From an uncultured Pelagibacteraceae bacterium (lineage in GTDB: Bacteria > Pseudomonadota > Alphaproteobacteria > Pelagibacterales > Pelagibacteraceae), in NCBI GenBank assembly GCA_902521005.1, contig CABYPZ010000003.1, positions 38,219 through 102,218 of the forward strand: DNA of 64,000 bases, in the 5' to 3' direction. A program made the translations under genes and the position numbers. Shown one piece after another: positions 7,163 through 39,086 of this stretch (within the stretch, counting starts at the first letter, position 1; each line of letters begins with the position of its first letter). A model generated the notes under the pieces. The model saw only the letters and a list, made by a program, of their open reading frames with translations, was not told where the DNA came from and ran no database searches.

Positions 7163-7907
7163 ATCAAAAATATTAAAAAAATTTAAAAATATAGAACATG
7201 GCTTTTTTAATAGCAAAGGCGGTGTATCAAAAGGAATATACAAAAGTTTAAATTGTGGACCAGGTTCTAAAGATAAAAAATATTTTATAAATAAAAATCT
7301 AAAAATTGTATTAAAAAAACTTAACTCTTCACAAAAAAAACTAATTTTGCTTAATCAAATACATAGTAATAAAATTTATTATGTTAAAGAAAAAAGGAAA
7401 AAAAAACTAATAGGAGATGGAATAATTACTGAAAATAGATCTTTGGCTATAGGTATTTTGACGGCAGATTGTTGCCCTATTCTATTTTTTGATCCTGTTA
7501 AAAATATTATCGGAGCAGCGCACGCGGGTTGGAGAGGAGCATATAAAAAAATTGGCAAGAAGATGATATTAAAACTATTAAATAAAGGAACAAAATTAAA
7601 TGATATACATGTAGTAATTGGACCAACTATTTTACAAAAAAACTATGAAGTTAAAAAAGATTTCAAATTAAGATTTTTAAAACAAGATTTATCAAATAGG
7701 ATATTTTTTAAAATAAAGCAAAAAAAACTTTATTTTGATTTATCGGGCTACATCTCAACTCAAATGAAAAATATTGGTGTAAAGAATATCGAAATTATTA
7801 AAAAAGATACATTTGAACCAAAAAATAATTTTTTTAGCGCAAGAAGGTCTTTAAAAAATAATTTTGATGATTATGGTAGAAATATATCAATAATTATGAT
7901 TAAATAG
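7155..7907 (+). CDS. pgeF: Peptidoglycan editing factor PgeF / YfiH-family laccase-domain protein
   Basis: A 250-residue YfiH-family protein. Such proteins are often labelled polyphenol oxidase; in E. coli PgeF removes mis-incorporated residues from peptidoglycan precursors, and mammalian FAMIN acts on purine nucleosides. Conserved metal-site blocks are visible: LNQIHSNKI, TADCCPILFFDP, GAAHAGWRGAYKKIG, and FEPKNNFFSARRS near the C-terminus. The start is a TTG at 7155, inside the end of the preceding gene (8-bp overlap); the next ATG would remove conserved N-terminal sequence (EHGFFNSKGGVSKGIY). Confidence 0.88.
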   Translation: MIKSKILKKFKNIEHGFFNSKGGVSKGIYKSLNCGPGSKDKKYFINKNLKIVLKKLNSSQKKLILLNQIHSNKIYYVKEKRKKKLIGDGIITENRSLAIGILTADCCPILFFDPVKNIIGAAHAGWRGAYKKIGKKMILKLLNKGTKLNDIHVVIGPTILQKNYEVKKDFKLRFLKQDLSNRIFFKIKQKKLYFDLSGYISTQMKNIGVKNIEIIKKDTFEPKNNFFSARRSLKNNFDDYGRNISIIMIK

Positions 7908-7919
7908 AGTATCTCAGAA

Positions 7920-8852
7920 ATGAAACTTCTTACAGGGAATAGCAATAAAAATCTTAGTGTAAAAATATCAAAATTCCTTAAGACTAAACTCGTACATTCA
8001 AGTATTAAAAAATTTTCGGATGGTGAAATTTATATTGAAATAAAAGAAAACATAAGAGGAAATAGTATTTTTATTGTTCAATCAGTTAGTTCGCCAGCAA
8101 ATGATAATCTTATGGAACTTTTATTGTGTATAGATGCATTAAAAAGATCATCAGCAAAAAATATTACTGCTGTAATTCCATACTTTGGATATGCAAGACA
8201 AGATCGTAAAGTAGCACCAAGAACATCAATATCAGCTAAACTTGTTTCAAATTTAATAACTAAGGCTGGAGCAGACAGAGTGGTAACAGTTGATCTGCAT
8301 GCTGGACAAATTCAAGGTTTTTTTGATTTACCAGTTGATAACCTTTTTGCAACACCAATATTTGCTAGACATGTAAAAAGAAACGTTAAAGGAAATAATT
8401 TAATTTGTGTTTCACCGGATGTTGGTGGGGTTGAAAGAACTAGAGCTCTTGCAAGAAAGCTAGACAAAGGAATAGCAATTATTGACAAAAGACGGCCAGC
8501 GCCAGGAAAATCACAAGTTATGAATGTTATTGGAAACGTAAAAAATAAAACTTGTATAATAATTGACGATATAATTGACTCTGGCGGAACAATTGTGAAT
8601 GCTGCACAAGCACTTATCAATAGAGGTGCTAAAGAAGTTCACGTTTATATAACTCATGGAGTTTTGAGTGGAGAAGCTGTAGAAAAAATAAAAAAATCGA
8701 AAATAAAAAAGTTGGTAATTACTGATACGATTGATAATTCAGATAAGGTAAAAAAAGCCAAAAATATAGAGGTATTATCAATTGCTAATTTACTTGGAGA
8801 AGCAATTAAACGAATTTCTAACTCTACCTCTGTTTCAGATTTATTTAAATAA
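7920..8852 (+). CDS. prs: Ribose-phosphate pyrophosphokinase
   Basis: This enzyme makes PRPP from ribose-5-phosphate and ATP, feeding purine, pyrimidine, histidine and NAD synthesis. The 310-residue length is standard. Motifs include [10 protein letters not shown] (ATP loop), [19 protein letters not shown] (with the flexible-loop region [10 protein letters not shown] further on) and the PRPP loop [12 protein letters not shown] at about residues 217-228. It is followed by rplY, pth and ychF, a conserved alphaproteobacterial gene order. Confidence 0.97.
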
Positions 8853-8896
8853 ATTACTTGTAAATTTTACTATCATAAGTTAAAAACCTTCACTTT

Positions 8897-9619
8897 ATGA
8901 ATTCTTTAGAAGCATCAATTAGAAACACAGCCTCAAAAGGTGAACTTAATTTATTAAGAAAAAATGAACAAGTTCCAGCAATAATTTATGGGGGTAAAGA
9001 AGAAAATCAAAAAATTTCTTTATCAAAAAAACAAGTACAATTTTTAATAGATCAAGAAAATTTTTTATCAAAAATTATCACTATCAACATTGATGGCAAA
9101 CAAATAAATGTTCTTCCGAGAGACGTAAATTATGATCCAATAACAGACAATCCTATACACATTGATTTTTTAAGAATTGTAAAAGGGGCTAAAGTTATAA
9201 TTGAGATACCAGTAAAATTTATAAACAATGAAAAATCTCCAGGTCTCAAAAGAGGTGGTGTTTTAAACATAGTAAGAAGAAGTGTTGAACTTAAATGCCC
9301 TTCTGAAACTATACCCGACGAACTTGTAGTTGACTTAGATGGTCTAGAAATAGGAATAAGTATAAAAATATCATCTATTAAACTTCCTGAAAATGTAAAT
9401 CCAACTATACAGGGAAGGGATTTTGTAATTGCAACTGTTGCGGCTCCAACAATATTTAAAGAACCAGAAAAACCAGCAGAGGCAGAAAGTGCAGAAGGAG
9501 CAGAAGGAGCAGAGGGAGCAGAGGCTAAACCAGCTGAAGGTGATGAAAAAGCTGCAGATGACAAAAAAGGTAAAGAAGAACCTAAAAAAGAGGAAAAAGC
9601 CTCTAGTGATAAAAAATAA
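8897..9619 (+). CDS. rplY: 50S ribosomal protein L25/general stress protein Ctc
   Basis: L25 binds 5S rRNA. The 240-residue protein is of the long CTC type: an N-terminal L25 domain (RKNEQVPAIIYGGKEENQKISL) and a C-terminal TL5-like beta domain (about residues 95-190). A low-complexity tail of about 45 residues follows, starting with Ala-Glu-Gly triplets and ending in Lys/Glu/Asp-rich sequence. The AEG part is encoded by an in-frame 9-bp tandem repeat. Comparable acidic/lysine tails occur in many alphaproteobacterial L25 proteins. The 44-bp gap from prs shows no obvious terminator. Confidence 0.95.
   Translation: MNSLEASIRNTASKGELNLLRKNEQVPAIIYGGKEENQKISLSKKQVQFLIDQENFLSKIITINIDGKQINVLPRDVNYDPITDNPIHIDFLRIVKGAKVIIEIPVKFINNEKSPGLKRGGVLNIVRRSVELKCPSETIPDELVVDLDGLEIGISIKISSIKLPENVNPTIQGRDFVIATVAAPTIFKEPEKPAEAESAEGAEGAEGAEAKPAEGDEKAADDKKGKEEPKKEEKASSDKK
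9482..9526 (+). repeat. In-frame 9-bp tandem repeat in rplY
   Basis: Five consecutive 9-bp units (GCAGAAAGT, GCAGAAGGA twice, GCAGAGGGA, GCAGAGGCT) encode Ala-Glu-Ser/Gly/Ala triplets in the C-terminal tail of L25. The period is a multiple of three, so slippage would change tail length without breaking the frame. Confidence 0.9.
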
Positions 9620-9657
9620 TAATTCAAATTGAAAAAATTCCATAACTTACAGAAATC

Positions 9658-10218
9658 ATGATTTTATTAGTCGGCCTTGGAAATCCAACACCTGATAGTA
9701 ACGACAATAGACATAATGTTGGTTTTAAAATTATTGATGCAATAAATCAAAAATTTGGATTATCGAAACAAAAACCAAAATTCAAAGGTCTTCTAACTAC
9801 AGGAAACATTGCTAACAAAAAAGTATATGCAATAAAACCACTTACATTTATGAATAACTCTGGGATATGTATAAGAGAACTTATGGAATATTTTAAAATA
9901 GATATTGATGATGTGATTGTTTTCCATGACGATTTAGATGTTGATTTTGGAAAAATAAAAGCAAAATTTGGTGGTTCAAGCGCAGGTCATAATGGTATTG
10001 AGTCAATAGATAAGTTTATAGGCAAAGAATATTCAAGAGTTAGAGTTGGGATAGGAAAACCAGATAAAAAAATTCCTGTTTCTGATTATGTTTTAAATAA
10101 TTTTAATGAAGATGAAAAAATTCAGTTGGATCATATTACAACGAATATTATTGAATCAATTCCTATTCTTATAGATAAAAAATTAGATCTTTTTTCAAGT
10201 ACTGTTAATAATAAATAA
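9658..10218 (+). CDS. pth: Peptidyl-tRNA hydrolase
   Basis: Pth recycles peptidyl-tRNA that drops off ribosomes. The 186-residue protein has the standard features: LLVGLGNPTPDSNDNRHNVGF at the N-terminus with the catalytic His in NRHNVG, PLTFMNNSG, VFHDDLDVDFGK with the catalytic-site Asp, and GGSSAGHNGIESI. It lies between rplY and ychF; the ychF ATG begins immediately after the stop codon, so the two are translationally linked. Confidence 0.96.
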   Translation: MILLVGLGNPTPDSNDNRHNVGFKIIDAINQKFGLSKQKPKFKGLLTTGNIANKKVYAIKPLTFMNNSGICIRELMEYFKIDIDDVIVFHDDLDVDFGKIKAKFGGSSAGHNGIESIDKFIGKEYSRVRVGIGKPDKKIPVSDYVLNNFNEDEKIQLDHITTNIIESIPILIDKKLDLFSSTVNNK

Positions 10219-11292
10219 ATGGGATTTAAATGTGGTATTGTTGGCTTGCCTAACGTGGGAAAATCTACATTGTTTAATGCCTTAACAAATTCAACTAAAG
10301 CTCAGGCAGAAAATTTTCCTTTTTGTACAATAGATCCTAATATTGGAATAGTTCCAGTTCCAGATGAGAGATTAGAAAATTTAGTTTTTATATCAAATTC
10401 TAAAAAAAAAATTAATACTACTATTTCTTTTGTAGATATTGCAGGTCTTGTAAAGGGTGCATCAAAAGGTGAAGGTTTAGGTAATAAATTTTTATCTCAT
10501 ATAAGAGAAGTAGACGCAATTATACACATGATAAGATGCTTTGACTCTGATGATATACAAAATGTAAACCCAAATGTTGATCCTGTAAGAGACCTTGAAA
10601 TAATAGAAACAGAAATGAGGCTTGCTGATCTAGAATCTATTCAAAAAAGGTTGGATAAAAAAAATAAAAAAAATTCCACAGAAAATGAAATAAATATTTT
10701 AGAAACTGCTTTAAAATGTATAAATGATGATATTAAATTTGAATTACTATTTCAAAAATTCTCAAAAAAAGAAATAAATCAAGTTGGACTACTTTCAACA
10801 AAACCAGGCTTATATGTTTGCAATGTCGATGAGAAAAGCATTAAAAATGGTAATAAATATACAAAAGAATTTATAAGTAAATTTGGTGAAATAAATACAA
10901 TAATAGTATCTGCGGATATTGAAAATCAAATAAATGAATTAAACGAAGAAGAAAAAATTAATTATATGAAAATGATCGATTTAAAAGAGACGGGTTTAAA
11001 TGTCTTAATAAAAAAAGGTTACAACCTTCTTGAACTTCAAACATTTTTTACTTCAGGTCCTGAAGAAACTAGAGCTTGGACTGTTCAAAAAAATAGTTTA
11101 GCCCCGATTGCCGCTGGTATAATTCATAGTGACTTTGAAAAAGGTTTCATAAGAGCAGAGACGGTATCTTATGAAGATTTTATTAAATGTGAAGGATGGT
11201 TAAACTCAAAAAATAAGGGAAAATTAAGACTTGAGGGTAAAGATTATATTGTAAATGATGGTGATATTTTAAATTTTAGATTCAATACGTGA
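10219..11292 (+). CDS. ychF: Redox-regulated ATPase/GTPase YchF (Obg family)
   Basis: YchF/OLA1 is a ribosome-associated P-loop ATPase implicated in stress and translation control. The 357 residues show the P-loop GLPNVGKSTLFNAL (about 8-21), switch II with VDIAGLVKGASKGEGLGNKFL, a coiled-coil insertion, and the C-terminal TGS domain (TFFTSGPEETRAWTV...HSDFEKGFIRAETV). YchF members usually prefer ATP because of a changed G4 motif. The start abuts pth. The last 24 bp overlap the end of the convergent petC gene, so both coding ends are read on opposite strands. Confidence 0.95.
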   Translation: MGFKCGIVGLPNVGKSTLFNALTNSTKAQAENFPFCTIDPNIGIVPVPDERLENLVFISNSKKKINTTISFVDIAGLVKGASKGEGLGNKFLSHIREVDAIIHMIRCFDSDDIQNVNPNVDPVRDLEIIETEMRLADLESIQKRLDKKNKKNSTENEINILETALKCINDDIKFELLFQKFSKKEINQVGLLSTKPGLYVCNVDEKSIKNGNKYTKEFISKFGEINTIIVSADIENQINELNEEEKINYMKMIDLKETGLNVLIKKGYNLLELQTFFTSGPEETRAWTVQKNSLAPIAAGIIHSDFEKGFIRAETVSYEDFIKCEGWLNSKNKGKLRLEGKDYIVNDGDILNFRFNT

Positions 11293-12048
11293 CCAAAGTT
11301 TTTTCATACTAAAATAAACTAATACAGTCATTATAATCAAATATACAATAGCTCTAAATCCAATTTTATGTCTTGCTTCCAAATGTGGTTCAGCTGCCCA
11401 GGCTAAAAAGCTAGTAACGTCTCTCGCCATTTGATCTTCTGTCGCTTCAGTTCCGTCTATATATGTAACTATTCCCTCTGACAAAGGATTAGACATTTTT
11501 ATTTTATTTCCAGCCATGTATTTATTATAATAAACGCCATCATCTAAGCTTATACCTTCAGGTGCTTCTTCATAACCTAAAAGAAGTGAATAAATATAAT
11601 CGGCGCCACCTTTTCTAGCTTTTACCAAAACTGACATATCGGGTGGATATGCTCCTCCATTTGCTGCTGTTGCGGCTTGTATGTTTTCATATGGTCCAAC
11701 AAAATTATCTGATAGTCGGGCTACTCTAGTAAACATTTCTCCATCGCTATTAGGACCGTCAGTTAACTCAAATTGTGAAGCAATTATTTTTGCCTGTTCT
11801 ACTGAAAACTCAGGACCCCCTGCTTCAGAAAGATTCCGGTAACTTAAATATTTCATTGAATGACATGCGGCACAGACTTCTGTGTATACTTGATATCCTC
11901 TTTGAAGAGATGCCCTATCAAATTTTCCGAAGAAACCTTTGAAACTCCATCCTGGGCTCAATAATTCATGACTTCTCTCAGCAGCAGTTCCGTTATAAGA
12001 ATATGTAGAAATTACTAATACAAGTAATAGAGACTTTAAAACTCTCAT
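11269..12048 (-). CDS. petC: Cytochrome c1 of the bc1 complex
   Basis: The c-type cytochrome that passes electrons from the Rieske protein to a periplasmic cytochrome c. It has 259 residues: a cleavable signal ending near residue 23 (NGTAA-ER), the haem-binding CAACH at residues 59-63, and a C-terminal anchor helix ([18 protein letters not shown]). The distal Met ligand probably lies in the [15 protein letters not shown] region. It is last in the petA-petB-petC operon and overlaps petB by 4 bp. Its 3' end overlaps ychF by 24 bp. Confidence 0.95.
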
Positions 12049-13319
12049 GAGATTTCTTTCTTACTTCTTGCCATTGCTTCATTGGGAGAACCACCTAATA
12101 CTGGCTCTGTTAAGCTGAGAGGGACCTCTAAAGTTTTTTCTTTTAAACCCAATACTGGAAGAATAACTAAGAAATGTAAGAAGTAATAAGCTGTAGCTAT
12201 TCTTGCTACTAGTAAATATAAACCTTCTGCCGGCATTGCTCCGACATATCCTAATATTAAAACATCAGCTACTAAAAACCAATAAAACTGTTTGTAAAGT
12301 GGTCTAAAAATTGCTGATCTTACTTTTGAAGTATCCAGCCAAGGAAGAATTACTAAAACAAAAATTGCAGCAAACATTGCAACGACCCCTAAAAGTTTAT
12401 CAGGAACAGATCTTAATATTGCATAGAATGGTAGCAAATACCATTCTGGTACAATATGAGCTGGAGTAACCAGTGGATTTGCTTCAATATAATTATCAGC
12501 ATGTCCTAAAATATTTGGTGAATAAAAAACAAAAAATGCAAAAACAATTAAAAACAATAGCAATGCAAATAAGTCTTTTACAACAATATAAGGATGAAAT
12601 GGTACTGTATCATTAGATGGTTTTTTAAGATCAATACCAATAGGATTATTGTTACCTGGAACATGAAGAGCCCAGATGTGCAAAACAACAAGTCCTAAAA
12701 TTAAAAAAGGTATAAGATAGTGTAAACTAAAAAACCTTGTTAGAGTTGGATTATCAACCGAATAACCACCCCATAACCAAGTTACTATACTTTCTCCCAC
12801 TAATGGAATAGCACTAAATAGATTAGTTATAACTGTAGCGCCCCAAAAACTCATTTGTCCCCAAGGAAGAACATAGCCCATGAATGCTGCAGCCATCATC
12901 AAAATATATATTATCATTCCTAATATCCATATAATTTCTCTTGGCGATTTATAAGAGCCGTAGTAAAGCGATCTAAAAATATGAATATAAACTGCTAAAA
13001 AAAACATTGATGCTCCATTTGCATGAACATATCTTATTAGCCAGCCATAATTAACATTTCTCATAATGTGTTCTACACTTTCAAACGCTAAATCCGCATG
13101 TGCTATGTAATGCATAGCCAGGATTAGACCTGTAACTATTTGAGTAATTAAACAAAAAGTTAATATTCCGCCAAATGTCCACCAATAATTTAAATTTTTT
13201 GGAGTTGGATAATCAGTTAAATGATTTGCCAGTGATAATAGTGGCAGCCTATCATTAAACCATTTTCCAAATTTAGACTTAGGTGTGTAATTATGATCAC
13301 TCATATTATTTTTATCCAA
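12045..13319 (-). CDS. petB: Cytochrome b of the bc1 complex
   Basis: The quinol-oxidising, eight-helix core of complex III. The 424-residue protein keeps the haem b histidine pattern ([13 protein letters not shown]..., [19 protein letters not shown], and later [24 protein letters not shown]), the [17 protein letters not shown]o segment, and a [14 protein letters not shown] motif. It overlaps petC by 4 bp and petA by 8 bp, giving tightly coupled translation. Length and order match alphaproteobacterial petB; the product is full-length cytochrome b, not the split b6/subunit IV form. Confidence 0.97.
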
Positions 13320-13824
13320 TTTTTATTGTATTGCTATCGACAAACTCATATTTTGGAACTTCCATATTTGTAGGAGCTGGTCCCTTTCTAATTCTTCCAG
13401 ATGTATCATAGTGTGAACCATGACAAGGGCAGAACCAACCTCCGTACTCTCCCTTATCACCAAGTGGAACACATCCTAAATGTGTGCATACTCCCAACAT
13501 AACTAGCCACTCTGGATTCTTTGCTCTATCTTCATCAGTTTCTGGATGAGGTAAATCATCTATTTTGACATCTTTAGCTTTTGCAATTTCTTCACTAGTT
13601 CTCCGTCTAATAAATACTGGTTTCCCTCTCCATAAAACAGTAATTGATTGGCCAACTTCTACACCACTTATGTCTACTTCAGTGCTTGCTAACGCTTTAA
13701 CAGATGCATCAGGATTCATTTGATCAACTAAAGGCCATACAGCTGCTCCAACTCCAACTGCTCCTAGTGCATATGATGCTGTAAATATGAAATCTCTTCT
13801 ATTGGTTTTTTTTTCTTCTGACAT
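13312..13824 (-). CDS. petA: Rieske iron-sulfur subunit of the bc1 complex
   Basis: The 170-residue 2Fe-2S protein of complex III. The N-terminus has a twin-arginine pair (R9-R10 in TNRRDFIF) followed by the single membrane anchor at about 14-34, consistent with Tat export. The cluster ligands are present in two boxes: C113-T-H115-L-G-C118 and C132-P-C134-H135, with the Cys118/Cys132 disulfide expected. [15 protein letters not shown]-terminal segment follows. It heads petABC; its promoter should lie in the 63-bp gap shared with the divergent trmL gene. Confidence 0.97.
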
Positions 13825-13887
13825 TAAAAATTATAATTATTTATGCTTAATTATATGATTAAATAATAATAAAAAAGGTATTTTTCC

Positions 13888-14361
13888 ATGGATACAATGA
13901 CACACGATCATAGTAATTTAAGGCCAAAAATAGCACTATATGAGCCTGATATACCTCAAAATACAGCTTCGATAGTCAGGACCTGTTCTTGTTTAGGGGC
14001 ACAATTAGAAATTATTGAGCCGTGTGGATTCTTATTGTCAGATAAACGTTTTAAAAGAGTAGTCATGGATTATATGAATATAAACAACATAAGTTTTTAC
14101 AAGGACTATAAGGAATTCTTTAAAATTAAAAAAAAGGATAGAGTAATACTGATTACAACAAAAGCTGACAAAGTGTATACTGATTTTTCTTTTAAAAAAA
14201 ATGACACAATTTTGTTTGGAAGAGAAAGTTCTGGTGTGCCAAAACATGTACATGAGATAGTTAATGAAAGGCTAAGAATACCAATGTTAGAAAATAAAAG
14301 ATCTCTTAATCTTGCAACATCAGTTGGTATAGTGTTGGCTGAACAATTGAGACAGAATTAA
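13888..14361 (+). CDS. trmL: tRNA (cytidine(34)-2'-O)-methyltransferase, SPOUT class
   Basis: TrmL methylates the wobble 2'-hydroxyl of certain tRNALeu isoacceptors. The 157-residue SPOUT enzyme shows the N-terminal LYEPDIPQNTASIVRTC block, the LFGRESSGVPKHVHE motif and the trefoil-knot SAM region RSLNLATSVGIVLAEQ. The ATG at 13888 gives about 14 residues before the conserved domain, and an alternative ATG at 13897 would shorten this slightly. hemF starts directly after the stop codon. The tRNA target is family knowledge. Confidence 0.88.
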   Translation: MDTMTHDHSNLRPKIALYEPDIPQNTASIVRTCSCLGAQLEIIEPCGFLLSDKRFKRVVMDYMNINNISFYKDYKEFFKIKKKDRVILITTKADKVYTDFSFKKNDTILFGRESSGVPKHVHEIVNERLRIPMLENKRSLNLATSVGIVLAEQLRQN

Positions 14362-15186
14362 ATGGAAGAAAGTATAAAAAAAAAATTGACTAAAAATTGG
14401 TTTAAGATTCTTCAAGATATGATTTGTAGTGAAATTGAAGAATTAGAAAATAAACCTAAATTTAAATTAACAAATTGGCAAAGAAATAAGTCAAAAGATG
14501 AAGGCGGAGGAGAATATAGAATTTTAGAAAATGGAAAAATTTTTGAAAAAGTTGGAGTAAATTTCTCAGAGGTATATGGAAAATTTTCAGAGAAATTTAA
14601 AGACAGGATACCAGGAACTAAAAACGATCCAAGTTTTTGGGCCTCTGGTATTTCAGTTGTAATGCATATGAAAAATCCTCATATTCCTGCTATGCATTTT
14701 AATACAAGGTATATACATACATCTTATGGATGGTTTGGAGGGGGAATGGATGTTACTCCTTGTTTTGAAGACAAAAATTTAAAAAAGTGGTTTCACAATG
14801 AACTAAAAAAAACATGTGATAGTCATAATAAAAAATTTTATAAAAAATATAAAAAGCAATGTGATGAATACTTTTATCTTCCTCATAGAAAAGAAACTAG
14901 GGGAATTGGAGGAATATTTTTTGACTATAAAAAAGAAAATTGGGAGAAAGATTTTAAGTTTGTGAGAGATGTGGGGCTAACTTTTAAACAAGTTTTTAAA
15001 GATATTATTATGAAAAAAAATAAAAAAAAATGGACAAAAAAACAAAAAGAAGTTCAATACTTAAAAAGAGGAAGATATATTGAATTTAACTTGCTATACG
15101 ATAGAGGAACTAAATTTGGATTACAAACTGGAGGCAATACAGATGCAATCTTAATGTCTCTTCCCCCTATTGCGAAATGGAAATAA
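14362..15186 (+). CDS. hemF: Oxygen-dependent coproporphyrinogen III oxidase
   Basis: Oxidative decarboxylation of coproporphyrinogen III in haem synthesis, using O2. The 274-residue protein carries the family blocks GGGEYRILENGKIFEKVGVNFS, MHFNTRYIHT, WFGGGMDVTPCFE, RGIGGIFFDY and the C-terminal GRYIEFNLLYDRGTKFGLQTGGNTDAILMSLPP (positions about 234-266). It fits an aerobic lifestyle with bc1 and aa3 oxidase nearby. It is packed stop-to-start between trmL and greA. Confidence 0.96.
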   Translation: MEESIKKKLTKNWFKILQDMICSEIEELENKPKFKLTNWQRNKSKDEGGGEYRILENGKIFEKVGVNFSEVYGKFSEKFKDRIPGTKNDPSFWASGISVVMHMKNPHIPAMHFNTRYIHTSYGWFGGGMDVTPCFEDKNLKKWFHNELKKTCDSHNKKFYKKYKKQCDEYFYLPHRKETRGIGGIFFDYKKENWEKDFKFVRDVGLTFKQVFKDIIMKKNKKKWTKKQKEVQYLKRGRYIEFNLLYDRGTKFGLQTGGNTDAILMSLPPIAKWK

Positions 15187-35413: not shown

Positions 35414-36382
35414 ATGGCTGTTTATACAAAGATAAACTCAAAAATAATTTCATCAATTGAAAATAATTATAGCATAGGAAAAATAATTAAATTTAGTGGT
35501 ATTAAAAAAGGAATAGAAAATACTAATTATTTTATTAAGACAAAAAAGAAAAAATTTATACTTACAATATTTGAAAAACGGGTAAATTCAAAAGATCTTC
35601 CGTTCTTTATGAATTTAATGTCTGGGCTACATAAATTAAAAATTAAATGCCCAATGCCTATTAAAAATAAAAAGGGTAGTTATTTATTTAAAATAAAAAA
35701 AAAACAAGCTTGTATAGTTACATTTCTTGATGGGAAAGACAAAAACGAATTAACTGCAAAAGACTGTTATGTTGTTGGAAAAAATATTGGAAAATTACAT
35801 AAAGCTTCAAAAAAACTTAAAATCTTCAGGAAAAACTCAATGTCGATAAATTCTTGGGGACCGCTCTTAAATAAGATCGATAATAGAATAAACAAAGTTT
35901 CAAAAAATTTAAAGAATTCAATGAAACATGACCTAAATGATATAAAGCAGAAATGGCCTAAAAATTTACCAAAGGGTATTATTCATAGTGATTTGTTTAT
36001 AGATAATATTTTCTTTTATAAGAGAAAATTTCTTGGATACATTGATTTTTATTTTTCTTGCAACGATTTTTTAGCATATGAATTAGCTATTTGTATAAAC
36101 GCACTTTGTTTTAAAAAAAAAAATAGTTCCTTTATATTTGATAAAAAAAAATCGACTAATCTTATTAGAGGTTATGAATCTATTAGAAAATTAAATGGAA
36201 ATGAAAAAAAATACTTTAATGTGCTGTGTCGTGGATCCGCTTTGAGATATTTGCTAACTAGAGCATATGATTATTTAAATACACCAAAAAATGCTATAAT
36301 TAAAATTAAAGATCCAAAAGAATATATTAAAAAGTTAAATTTTCATCGTCAAGTAAAGTCATACAACAATTATATTAATTAA
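35414..36382 (+). CDS. thrB: Homoserine kinase, aminoglycoside-phosphotransferase-fold type
   Basis: The 322-residue kinase belongs to the APH-fold ThrB family of alphaproteobacteria rather than the GHMP family. Motifs are the catalytic loop GIIHSDLFIDNIFF (about residues 190-203), a metal-binding IDFYFSCNDFLAYELAI segment, and an N-terminal ENTNYFIKTKKKKFILTIFE nucleotide-binding region. Homoserine phosphate feeds threonine synthase (thrC at 39.1 kb), which lies on the other side of the HNH segment and on the opposite strand. It overlaps rnhA by 1 bp. Confidence 0.88.
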   Translation: MAVYTKINSKIISSIENNYSIGKIIKFSGIKKGIENTNYFIKTKKKKFILTIFEKRVNSKDLPFFMNLMSGLHKLKIKCPMPIKNKKGSYLFKIKKKQACIVTFLDGKDKNELTAKDCYVVGKNIGKLHKASKKLKIFRKNSMSINSWGPLLNKIDNRINKVSKNLKNSMKHDLNDIKQKWPKNLPKGIIHSDLFIDNIFFYKRKFLGYIDFYFSCNDFLAYELAICINALCFKKKNSSFIFDKKKSTNLIRGYESIRKLNGNEKKYFNVLCRGSALRYLLTRAYDYLNTPKNAIIKIKDPKEYIKKLNFHRQVKSYNNYIN

Positions 36383-36804
36383 TGATTAAAGTTTATACTG
36401 ATGGTTCTTGCCTAGAAAATCCTGGAAACGGTGGATGGGCAGCAATAATTATTGATGATGGAAAAAAGACTCAAATAAAAGGAAGTAAAAAAAATACTAC
36501 AAATAATCAAATGGAGTTAATGGCTCCAATTGAAGCTTTAAAGAAAATTCCTAAAAGTAGTAAAGTTCAAATTTTTACAGACTCTAAATATGTTAAATCA
36601 GGAATTACAGAGTGGATCCATAACTGGAAAAAAAATGGGTGGAAAACTGCAAATAAACAAAAAGTTAAAAACAAAGATCTTTGGGTAGAACTTGATCTGC
36701 TTTCAAGTCAATTTGATATAAAATGGAGCTGGGTAAAAGCACATTCCACTGATAAGTTAAATAATGAAGTAGACTTAATTGCTAGAGAAGCAGCAAATTT
36801 ATAA
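36382..36804 (+). CDS. rnhA: Ribonuclease HI
   Basis: RNase HI degrades RNA in RNA-DNA hybrids. The 140-residue protein has all catalytic carboxylates: YTDGSCLENPGNGGWAAI (D7), NNQMELMAPIEAL (E48 region), FTDSKYVKSG (D70 region) and NNEVDLIAREAA, with VKAHS carrying the conserved His. It ends the long atpI-rnhA plus-strand run. Its stop is followed after 3 bases by the 19-bp direct repeat that also flanks the far side of the HNH segment. Confidence 0.96.
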   Translation: MIKVYTDGSCLENPGNGGWAAIIIDDGKKTQIKGSKKNTTNNQMELMAPIEALKKIPKSSKVQIFTDSKYVKSGITEWIHNWKKNGWKTANKQKVKNKDLWVELDLLSSQFDIKWSWVKAHSTDKLNNEVDLIAREAANL

Positions 36805-36807
36805 ATG

Positions 36808-36826
36808 GGGCACCTGGCAACAGAAC
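36808..36826 (+). repeat. Direct repeat A, left copy (hairpin-forming)
   Basis: GGGCACCTGGCAACAGAAC, identical to 38571-38589. With flanks it can fold as GGGGC/GCCCC closing an internal loop and a CTG-GCAA-CAG tetraloop stem (36807-36831). It begins 3 bp after the rnhA stop. No T-run follows, so it is not a standard intrinsic terminator. Confidence 0.85.
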
Positions 36827-36836
36827 GCCCCTTCTC

Positions 36837-36848
36837 GATTCTCGATTC
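36837..36848. other. Two GATTC (GANTC) sites 7 bp apart at the left cassette edge
   Basis: GATTC at 36837-36841 and 36844-36848 lie in a short TCTCGAT tandem just right of repeat A. They are potential CcrM methylation sites. Their presence may be chance. Confidence 0.5.
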
Positions 36849-36886
36849 GCTAGAAAAATAAACACTTATTAGAATTCGATGACTAA

Positions 36887-36907
36887 TTGGTGTCAGAGTG
36901 GAGTTAT
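36887..36907. repeat. Degenerate repeat B, left copy
   Basis: Reading the minus strand, TAACTCCA and TGACACCA are spaced 11 bp start to start. The segment matches 16 of 21 positions of repeat B' at 38491-38511, which has two perfect TGACGCCA units. It overlaps the stop codon of the membrane-protein gene. Confidence 0.55.
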
Positions 36908-37314
36908 TTTTTTTTCTTTTTCTTTTTCTTTTTCTTTTTCACTTTTTTTAAAAAAAATTTATGTCTAGCAGTCAAAATCTCTTGCTCTTTTTTCTTTTCT
37001 CTCTCAGCTATAAACATAAATAACATCAGAACAGCAAATGCTACAAAGAAAGAAATCATCACCTTTATAAAATTAAGGTCTGGTTGGTATAAACTCATTA
37101 CATACCAGAATGTTACAAAAAACATTACCCAGCCCCAAATTATTGCTTTTGCAAGTTTGCTCCCAAAAAAAGCTCCATACAAAATTATAAATAATATAAA
37201 TATAGCTCCAATACCTCCGGAACCTCCTAGACCTAATTCAACTAAGTAGATATTTGCTAAAGCAGGATTGCTCCAAAATAATATTGGTACTACAATCCCT
37301 AAAAGTTTTTTCAT
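36904..37314 (-). CDS. Small membrane protein with poly-lysine C-terminus, unknown function
   Basis: A 136-residue protein. A signal-like N-terminus (residues 1-20, LLGIVVPILFWSNPALA) is followed by about three membrane helices (roughly 34-52, 58-75 and 83-102), then a charged cytoplasmic tail that ends in 11 lysines. The lysine run is encoded by TTTTTC hexamer repeats on the plus strand. The start lies 5 bp after the stop of the HNH gene, so the two form one unit. The family is not recognised. It may be an envelope partner of the nuclease or an unrelated passenger. Confidence 0.6.
   Translation of the reverse strand: MKKLLGIVVPILFWSNPALANIYLVELGLGGSGGIGAIFILFIILYGAFFGSKLAKAIIWGWVMFFVTFWYVMSLYQPDLNFIKVMISFFVAFAVLMLFMFIAEREKKKEQEILTARHKFFLKKVKKKKKKKKKKK
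36907..36940 (+). repeat. TTTTTC hexanucleotide repeat encoding the lysine tail
   Basis: Nine T, then C, then four TTTTTC units. On the minus strand this reads AAG-AAA codons for the C-terminal lysines just before the TAA stop. Slippage by whole hexamers would lengthen or shorten the tail; slippage within the T9 run would shift the frame at the very end. Confidence 0.9.
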
Positions 37315-37319
37315 TTAAT

Positions 37320-38471
37320 TTATCTCTTATATTTAGTATATCGCCAATCTAAAAATATTTTACCGGGTTTATTCTTTAGTTGATTTAAGCTATTTCTATT
37401 AATGTTTAGTAAAGAACCATTCTTTTTAATTATTTCTATTTTATAGTTACTTGGATTAATTTTAAAAAAGTTATCATCAAATCCTTTATGATGATTTTTA
37501 CACAATATAAGTCCGTTTCTTTTGTTATCTGAACCTTTGTCTTTAACAGGTACAATATGTGCGGCTTCTAAGAAATACTTAATTCCACATACCGCACACT
37601 CATTTTGATAATAATTAAAAACATCTGAACTAAATTTTGGTTGGTTATTACCTCTTGATGAAGATAATCTTTTTTTCCTCTCTCTACTGTTTACAAATAA
37701 TTGATCCTTAGATTCATCCTCATTTTGAACCTCTATGATATCATCTATTGGGATTACATGTTTAGTTTCTTCCTTTACAAAACTTATGAGAAAAGATCTT
37801 TGATCATCATTGAACCTTTGTACATAACCTAATCTAATTTCTTTTTTTGATTTGTCTCTCCCTATGCCCAATACAACAAAGATTGGTATATTTAAATTAC
37901 AACAATTTTTAAGAGAATTTATTTCTCCTATATCTCTAGTTTTATGAATTGTATCAGGATAAAAATAAGTCAAATGTGTATCAGTTAAGACATCGTCATA
38001 CTTTTCTCCAGTATCAAGAACAGACTGACAAATTCCATCTGTAAAACTAAATTTTTTTGTTCTTGATATATCCCTATAAATACCTCTTTCACCTCTGTGA
38101 ATTTTGATTTGATTTCTCACATAATCATTCGAGTGTAATTTTTTCTTTGAAATTTCTTTCCAAATTGAAAGATTCTTCTGTTTAAATTCATAAACAAATT
38201 TTGCTTCATCTAAATTTTGAAAACTTTCTACCAAAAACCAAACGCCTTTTCCTTTGCCATATAAAGTTTTGAATATATTATTTCCTTTAAAAGCATCACT
38301 ATCCTCAGAATTCTCCTCAATTCTTGCTTGAATACTCCTATCAAATGTTTTTGAAATTTCCTCTTTAGTGGAGATACTTTTATAAACTTCATAGATATCT
38401 TTCAGATTGGCTACTCCACCTAAAGATTGAAATGAACTTATTACTCTTTCGAGAATTGTCATAATAATCAT
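37320..38471 (-). CDS. HNH endonuclease, candidate modification-dependent restriction enzyme
   Basis: A 383-residue protein. The C-terminal HNH nuclease is clear: C292-x2-C295, then AAHIVPVKDKG with H305, N319, and C324-K-N-H327-H328 with a zinc CxxC...CxxH arrangement. The N-terminal ~80 residues look like a winged helix (LERVISSFQSLGGVANLKDIYEVY; SIQARIEENSEDSDAF; GKGVWFLV). The middle, about 125-250 (VLDTGEKYDDVLTDTHLTYFYP; GIGRDKSKKEIRLGYVQRF), resembles SRA-like or related base-reading domains. This arrangement suggests cutting of modified foreign DNA, but that is inference. An alternative start at 38462 is possible. No cognate methyltransferase is adjacent. Confidence 0.72.
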   Translation of the reverse strand: MIIMTILERVISSFQSLGGVANLKDIYEVYKSISTKEEISKTFDRSIQARIEENSEDSDAFKGNNIFKTLYGKGKGVWFLVESFQNLDEAKFVYEFKQKNLSIWKEISKKKLHSNDYVRNQIKIHRGERGIYRDISRTKKFSFTDGICQSVLDTGEKYDDVLTDTHLTYFYPDTIHKTRDIGEINSLKNCCNLNIPIFVVLGIGRDKSKKEIRLGYVQRFNDDQRSFLISFVKEETKHVIPIDDIIEVQNEDESKDQLFVNSRERKKRLSSSRGNNQPKFSSDVFNYYQNECAVCGIKYFLEAAHIVPVKDKGSDNKRNGLILCKNHHKGFDDNFFKINPSNYKIEIIKKNGSLLNINRNSLNQLKNKPGKIFLDWRYTKYKR

Positions 38472-38490
38472 TATTTATAACACACATATT

Positions 38491-38511
38491 TTGGCGTCAT
38501 AGTGGCGTCAC
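38491..38511 (-). promoter_or_regulatory. Repeat B': tandem TGACGCCA pair upstream of the HNH gene
   Basis: On the minus strand two perfect TGACGCCA units lie 11 bp apart start to start (one helical turn), ending about 20 bp before the HNH start codon. The second unit overlaps a possible -35 (ATGACG) followed by TATAAA near the start. This suggests an operator for a dimeric regulator, or an arm-type recombinase site. A degenerate copy lies at 36887-36907. Confidence 0.5.
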
Positions 38512-38570
38512 GAAATGATGATTTATTTGTATATTGATCGTATTTTCTAATGAAAAGTAAGAATAGTTAA

Positions 38571-38589
38571 GGGCACCTGGCAACAGAAC
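38571..38589 (+). repeat. Direct repeat A, right copy
   Basis: GGGCACCTGGCAACAGAAC, identical to 36808-36826. It can fold with GGG/CCC around the same CTG-GCAA-CAG hairpin, but the outer stem is weaker than in the left copy. It lies 12 bp beyond the 3' end of the peroxiredoxin gene. Confidence 0.85.
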
Positions 38590-38600
38590 CCCACTTATAA

Positions 38601-39086
38601 TTAGATAATATCTAAAATTCCCTCTGCCGAGGAAATACCACAGCTTTTAGTTTCTTCTTCTTCTTGGATATTTTGGGCTTTTAAATTTTCAATAATCATG
38701 GCGTAACGACTAGATCTAATTCCCATACCTTTTGAATTTCTATCAATTTCTGCACCTATTGATTTGGTAAATAATAAATATGGATCAGCTAACATTTTGA
38801 TATTATTTCCAACATTATTAGCTTCCCCCCAAGCATTCATTACATGTGGATCGTTTACTGAAATACAAAATATTTTATCAATTCCTTTAGATTTTAATTT
38901 TTCAGCATATTTTACGTATCCAGGTAAATGAAGTTTAGAACATGTAGAAGTATAAGCCCCTGGTAATCCAAATAACAATATTTTACTATTTCCAAAGGTT
39001 TCTTTAATGCTTTGCTCCTTTGGCTCACCGTCTTTTAAAATATAGATATTAGCCTCAGGTATAAAGTCGTTTACTTTTAATTTCAT
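38601..39086 (-). CDS. Peroxiredoxin, Prx5/AhpE-like
   Basis: A thiol peroxidase of 161 residues. The peroxidatic Cys is C49 in LPGAYTSTCS, the Prx5-type motif, followed by LPGYVKYAEKLKSKGIDKIFCISVNDPHVMNAWG. A second Cys in KSCGISSAEGIL near residue 148 could be the resolving Cys. The expected role is removal of hydrogen peroxide or organic peroxides. It overlaps thrC by 4 bp and is downstream of it in the same transcript. Confidence 0.92.
   Translation of the reverse strand: MKLKVNDFIPEANIYILKDGEPKEQSIKETFGNSKILLFGLPGAYTSTCSKLHLPGYVKYAEKLKSKGIDKIFCISVNDPHVMNAWGEANNVGNNIKMLADPYLLFTKSIGAEIDRNSKGMGIRSSRYAMIIENLKAQNIQEEEETKSCGISSAEGILDII

Follow-up and report, generated by a model that had tools for sequence, protein, structure and literature searches.

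A 1,763 bp unit lying between rnhA and a peroxiredoxin gene in a Pelagibacteraceae genome is very probably an integrase-less attP cassette, likely moved in trans by the tyrosine integrase of an element that targets ssrA. It is found within the window, the whole 64,000 nt stretch of DNA that was analysed, and is bounded by two perfect copies of a 19-mer on the plus strand (36808-36826 and 38571-38589). In sequence, this core is the 3' terminus of ssrA, the tmRNA gene of alphaproteobacteria; both copies match the end of the Rfam model, with scores below its gathering score. Measured from core to core, the cassette contains two genes, both on the minus strand. The features of the locus are as follows:

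36382..36804, plus strand: rnhA (RNase HI), the left host flank (PF00075, E 4.5e-47)
36808..36826, plus strand: left core (attL-like), repeating the ssrA 3' end (alpha_tmRNA model end, 21.2 bits against a gathering score of 50, E 0.0019)
36827..36874, plus strand: left end of the cassette, sharing 46/48 bases with that of an integrase-bearing ssrA element (L371/L393)
36887..36907, plus strand: putative left arm-type pair TTGGTGTCAGAG/TGGAGTTAT, imperfect and identified by eye, 60 bp past the core
36904..37314, minus strand: cargo gene for a 136 aa membrane-like protein, with no family over cut-off
37320..38471, minus strand: cargo gene for a 383 aa predicted winged-helix, SRA and HNH modification-dependent (type IV) restriction endonuclease
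38491..38511, plus strand: putative right arm-type pair TTGGCGTCATAG/TGGCGTCAC, starting 83 bp before the core 16-mer
38571..38589, plus strand: right core (attR-like) (alpha_tmRNA, 22.6 bits against a gathering score of 50, E 0.00069)
38601..39086, minus strand: peroxiredoxin gene, the right host flank (PF08534, E 1.5e-26)

The original prediction described two 19-mers in the same orientation, after rnhA and after the peroxiredoxin gene, with nothing between them other than an HNH nuclease gene and a membrane-protein gene, and no integrase. The repeats are as described, the open reading frames agree with the gene content, and neither cargo protein was identified as a recombinase by Pfam or PHROGs. 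Searching the entire 1.0 Mb assembly (86.5% complete) at up to three mismatches recovered these two copies alone, rather than the many expected of a common genome-wide repeat; at the same stringency 0.01 matches would be expected by chance in the window, and none of 100 shuffles contained two. The spacing of the surrounding genes had also been remarked upon. Among naive ORFs of at least 70 aa there are ten convergent pairs, not the eleven originally counted, and all overlap or lie 1 bp apart except for rnhA and the membrane-protein gene, which do form the sole pair with a gap (99 bp). The gap on the other side of the cassette is indeed 129 bp, but instead of being the largest it ranks third, after gaps of 263 and 147 bp, when the spaces between ORFs are compared irrespective of RNA genes.

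The occupancy of the rnhA site varies between relatives. It could be read in 41 genomes, comprising the 30 best matches and a further 11, from 85 matching genomes among 121. In 14 of these, rnhA is less than 100 bp from the peroxiredoxin gene or thrC and no core is present; in seven the distance is equally short and a core or near-core is found, as had been anticipated for empty sites retaining a single copy. Ten genomes have 100 bp or more in this position, with a core after rnhA, and another eight are similarly filled with no core directly after rnhA, such that other routes of insertion must also operate at this site. The remaining two were left unclassified, one being the window's own genome in a short locus. 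The end of rnhA appears to be a secondary site for cassettes. The most informative comparison is with the sibling genome G224, the flanks of which are 98.3% identical to those of the window over 1,039 bp on the left and 97.3% over 6,425 bp on the right; it carries three different cassettes at the rnhA site, the last of which has a degenerate core as its right boundary. Both this genome and the empty sites show that the two cargo genes are not common to all close relatives, and other cassettes between the same repeats, suggested originally as a check, are found in G224 with this one qualification as to the last right core. Identity between G224 and the window stops at 36833 and restarts at 38576, positions either inside the cores or no more than 7 bp from them. 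In L048, the rnhA site holds a decayed remnant of less than 150 bp.

The assignment of the core to ssrA, which did not form part of the original prediction, was apparent in other SAR11 genomes: in 30 of 40 fetched loci the core is located at the 3' end of a tmRNA gene predicted by ARAGORN, and in a 31st, L049, the tmRNA tag region is visible in the flank. An ssrA gene was not found in the window's own assembly, which is 86.5% complete. Among 80 of at least 120 matches to the core in GTDB species genomes, 79 belonged to Pelagibacteraceae, Pelagibacterales or Pelagibacter, and one to Rhodobiaceae; a 17-mer version was present in three of 289 genomes sampled from the class, two of the three being SAR11. 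Within the family, 81 of 147 genomes have the exact 15-mer core (40 of the 53 of high quality), many with tandem copies. Further copies, with neither a predicted tmRNA nor an adjoining rnhA, were observed in L042, L043, L052, L070 and L074; the copy in L070 is a variant that runs on from a tRNA-like sequence at its 3' end.

Downstream of the SAR11 ssrA gene, the core is repeated in tandem with small cassettes between the copies. At least two exact copies of a 13-mer core were found in 23 of the 40 fetched regions, with a maximum of five, mostly spaced at 0.2-2.8 kb. Allowing up to two mismatches per core and leaving out the window's own cassette, these regions and further loci gave 102 distinct core-to-core segments, ranging from 124 to 14,633 bp with a median of 828 bp. 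The longest, in L061, contains an additional core having three mismatches in the 16-mer, and because of this degenerate copy the true unit is around 13.7 kb. This core-bounded unit of the ssrA array (L061:3960-17610) is still far above the usual size, and has around 15 ORFs, one encoding a predicted zinc-dependent alcohol dehydrogenase. Segments of up to 5 kb consist of 81% ORF sequence and have a mean of 1.8 ORFs, with 139 of 179 ORFs directed against the core. A set of 117 cargo ORFs matched 84 Pfam families, the top 25 of which include inverse-autotransporter barrels, DUF805, methyltransferases, MrcB-N, HNH, superoxide dismutase and SelR, whilst PADLOC matched ten models to the cargo, including mad2 (three members) and one each of viperin-like, caspase and type IV restriction systems.

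Similar cassettes recur in different surroundings. Both flanks were unrelated (z below 5) in 17 of the 28 pairs of similar cassettes that were tested, out of 45 listed, and therefore the moving unit appears to extend from core to core. Cassettes at ssrA and at rnhA may also be related, the cassette proteins of L062 and L050 being 78-79% identical. Another recurring theme, seen in the arrays of L058, L060, L069, L070 and L073, is a family of cassette proteins around 190 aa long, with 11 members, one of which was scanned and had no Pfam match; many cassettes in these same arrays have a near-identical block at the right end, composed of promoter-like sequence and an N-terminal leader.

The ends of the cassettes contain short direct repeats, in pairs or triplets, with successive copies 11 bp apart (lag 11). 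In 63 non-redundant cassettes these were detected at 26 left and 25 right ends, compared to 0.6 and 1.0, respectively, in shuffled sequences and one of 63 cassette middles. Other lags were infrequent at the ends, except for lags of 23 (16 cases), 12 (seven) and 15 (six) on the right. The repeated word varies across cassettes, yet tends to be common to both ends of any one cassette on the same strand: a same-strand 7-mer was shared by the two ends in 30 of 63 cassettes, whereas 2,000 permutations gave a mean of 8.9 and a maximum of 19, and sharing between opposite strands (nine) was close to the permuted value of 7.7. A position survey of 84 cassettes, not de-duplicated and with that of the window included, found 40 left repeats, starting at +48-52 in 30 cases, at +58-63 in eight and elsewhere in two, and 33 right repeats, starting at -77-83 in 22 and at -87-95 in 11. 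There are thus two classes of position around one helical turn apart, and helical phasing of this kind would be required of the arm-type sites of lambda-like integrases. By the criterion used, 25 of the 84 cassettes have the lag-11 repeat at both ends and 36 at neither. A search of the cassette ends for a shared distal motif by expectation maximisation (EM) recovered nothing other than core-adjacent sequence.

In the window's cassette, the right pair passes the lag-11 test, and 20 bp separate its near end from the start codon of the HNH gene downstream, whilst the left pair fails the test; the latter scores under the automatic repeat threshold and was read by eye, its position class being taken from the cassette survey. 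Tyrosine integrase genes of SAR11 have repeats of the same kind immediately upstream, and it is for this reason that we infer, from sequence, that the 11 bp-spaced repeats at cassette ends are arm-type integrase sites. Across 23 distinct integrase loci (L373 and L400 are the same integrase gene, and were counted once), the 135 bp leading up to the gene contain a lag-11 pair in 13 cases, a lag-12 pair in six and one or the other in 18, with 0-1 cases for each of the other lags and a lag-11 background of 0.6% in 474 window tiles. This enrichment therefore suggests that the repeats belong to integrase systems.

Tyrosine recombinases are widespread in the family, phage-type integrases much less so. 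A match to the former was found in 110 of 147 genomes, 98 of which have exactly one, mostly of around 310-325 aa; these 98 include G033, G058 and G115, each with five cores, and G003, complete in a single contig. The window's assembly likewise contains one, on a different contig to the cassette. Serine recombinases were found in three of the 147 genomes, none of which has the exact 15-mer core. Phage-type integrases are rare in SAR11, with 12 of 397 genomes matching below E 1e-60 a profile built from six integrases that are themselves among the 12. Two profiles that recovered eight of eight control loci (L353-L360) detected no integrase in the array cassettes or core-bearing viral loci (L007-L133, L165-L341 and L349-L352), the viral loci being parts of their contigs.

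A candidate for the helper element was nonetheless found in genome G337 (L371/L393), in which ssrA is followed by the core, a left end, an arm pair and, around 100 bp behind the core, an integrase gene (L393:3471-4463). The 46 of 48 positions shared with the left end of the window's cassette are accompanied by an arm pair, TTGGCGTCATGGTGGCGTCAC, just upstream of the integrase gene in L371, that is one base different from the window's right pair (20/21 identical). The contig ends within this element, of which the left end alone is therefore visible, and no such ssrA-adjacent integrase with matching ends is present in the window's genome. Among the loci examined, the window-type left end (up to five changes) and arm pair (up to three) were confined to the window's genome, L371/L393 and L267, the last being a 4.6 kb element in which an integrase was not found. 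In the protein database, 515 homologues of the G337 integrase were found at E 0.001 or better. Another integrase located next to ssrA, that of G812 (L398), is 52% identical to the one in G337, and has no lag-11 pair. A tandem arrangement is seen at a tRNA-Met gene (L357; G056:C2:31000-48000), where a 5.7 kb integrase-bearing element and an integrase-less 1.39 kb cassette, alike in their core and in having CTGACACA arms, lie side by side across 7660-14900, and a third unit begins after them, its left end being visible. The integrase-bearing element also encodes primase/helicase-like and small-terminase-like proteins, and resembles a phage satellite.

As to the cargo, the 383 aa protein belongs to the HNH_2 family, and its predicted structure has an SRA fold followed by an HNH domain, as in type IV restriction enzymes of the SRA-HNH type. 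Hence it is predicted to be a modification-dependent restriction enzyme, with a putative anti-phage role. It has a TagI-like match across SRA and HNH and a VcaM4I-like HNH domain, but unlike these two enzymes has an additional winged-helix domain at the N terminus. The gene was found in one of 397 family genomes, the window's own, with one further weak match over around 90 residues; a search of the genome behind L192, run without a positive control, gave no match to a homologue. The membrane-protein ORF ends in 11 consecutive lysine codons within a tract of AAAAAG repeats (36904-36950), which is possibly prone to slippage.

In the mechanism we propose, a circular cassette would re-form a site composed of P arm, core and P' arm, and the cognate integrase from a separate element would insert it at ssrA, with the core at the end of rnhA acting as a secondary site. 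The core would be restored with each insertion, homologous recombination in the flanks could then carry the cassette between strains, and the cargo may be kept for defence, as a predicted restriction enzyme directed against DNA with modified cytosines. There is good support for the original prediction of a small accessory unit that arrived through trans-acting recombination, in the empty sites, the other cassettes in G224, the arm-type repeats and an integrase at ssrA whose element shares the cassette's left end and arms. Its other suggestion, that the cassette homes into the end of rnhA through its own HNH nuclease, found little favour: such a nuclease is encoded within the unit and its distribution is patchy, but one occurrence in 397 genomes plus a weak partial match, the use of the same cores by cassettes with unrelated cargo, and a predicted structure that is that of an SRA-HNH restriction enzyme make this scarcely credible. 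Homing was rejected on the basis of this distribution and structure.

Flanking homologous recombination probably helps the cassettes to spread, and may well act in addition to an integrase. It is unlikely, however, that they spread solely by this process across conserved flanks, with the cores being relics and no integrase now active. The sibling flanks, 97-98% identical around different contents, are suited to allelic exchange, and in the excerpted text of a 2007 survey homologous recombination was proposed for the surface-polysaccharide (LPS) gene cassettes of SAR11, which are flanked by structural RNA genes (PMC2217521); left unexplained would be the boundaries at the cores, the kinship of the ssrA and rnhA cassettes of L062 and L050, the 17 of 28 pairs with unrelated flanks and the repeats phased relative to the core. 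We regard it as quite unlikely that the unit is what is left of a larger integrative element, now dead and immobile since the loss of its integrase: the remnant in L048 and the rarity of phage-type integrases are in keeping with such decay, but siblings differ at the rnhA site despite their near-identical flanks, and the right arm pair, left end and both cores in the window are nearly intact. Very unlikely is movement by the single Xer-like recombinase of the host, even though 98 of 110 genomes with a tyrosine recombinase, among them the three five-core genomes, have exactly one. Arm-type repeats suit integrases that bind arms through an N-terminal domain, and Xer is not known to have such a domain; repeats of this type are found upstream of phage-type integrases, and one integrase located at ssrA belongs to an element whose ends match.

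Few cells in the sea are as abundant as SAR11 bacteria, which are known for small genomes with a low number of mobile elements; strains nonetheless vary in their accessory genes. Movement by a borrowed integrase, if true, would explain the swapping of genes among such stripped-down genomes. The arrays represent a concrete route of cassette capture, for which the site and the ends are defined and there is a candidate enzyme, and the exchange of defence and surface genes therefore becomes directly testable. We lean towards the view that SAR11 has an integron-like cassette system running on phage-type integrases, in which one or two cargo genes lie between ssrA-end cores and the arm pairs of each cassette, phased at 11 bp, would be a barcode choosing the visiting satellite integrase able to insert or excise it. 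Searches of open-licence full text found no description of such arrays at ssrA in SAR11, a weak result given that subscription papers fell mostly outside its scope. As excerpted, the 2007 survey describes SAR11 variable regions without attC sites or a clear integron signature (PMC2217521).

Comparisons can be drawn with known types of system. CIMEs are the cis-mobilizable elements of ICE-type accretions and, like them, the SAR11 cassettes are flanked by att sites, lack recombination genes and can be found in tandem with an integrase-bearing element of the same core (L357, tRNA-Met); unlike CIMEs, they are far smaller (median 0.8 kb), form arrays of up to four, have arm-like pairs at their ends and reside in a streamlined genome. 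The window's cassette has two attachment-core copies and no recombination module of its own, and a helper with the same core and ends is represented by L371/L393, from another genome and at its left end only, and by the L357 tRNA-Met tandem. With integron arrays and CALINs, as treated in the excerpted part of PMC11389934, the SAR11 cassettes have in common their layout, as small cassettes in tandem behind a fixed site, and probably also movement in trans where no integrase is present. The differences are that the SAR11 site is the ssrA 3' end with phage-type arms, there is no IntI, and the cargo mostly runs against the core direction. No IntI-type integrase was found in the window's assembly (86.5% complete), the sole tyrosine recombinase scoring 25 bits against a cut-off of 265, on the C-terminal half of the protein (179 of around 317 aa). 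The phage satellites PICMI are, according to excerpts of PMC10803314, marine and site-specific in their integration, as are the cassettes; VEIMEs and tycheposons are named beside them there, and tycheposons also in the excerpted text of PMC10872708. The L357 helper, with its integrase and its primase-like and small-terminase-like genes, strengthens the likeness to satellites, but the window's cassette has neither an integrase nor replication genes of its own, and would borrow the integrase of another element.

Viral sequences were also searched. No viral matches were obtained with the type-A cassette end or with the arm pair of the window's cassette, the type-B cassette end matched five viral contigs, none with an adjoining core, and the best match to the ssrA end in 50,697 phage records was just 18 bases long. 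The 16-mer core was present in 61 IMG/VR contigs, 28 of which had no tmRNA predicted by ARAGORN; by eye, around 20 of these 28 still have a 3' end resembling that of a tmRNA, and the others appear to match by chance. In the other 33, which include L077-L084, the 3' part of the predicted tmRNA contains CACCTGGCAACAGAAC, as does the SAR11 core. No contig has a lag-11 pair where the cassettes have theirs.
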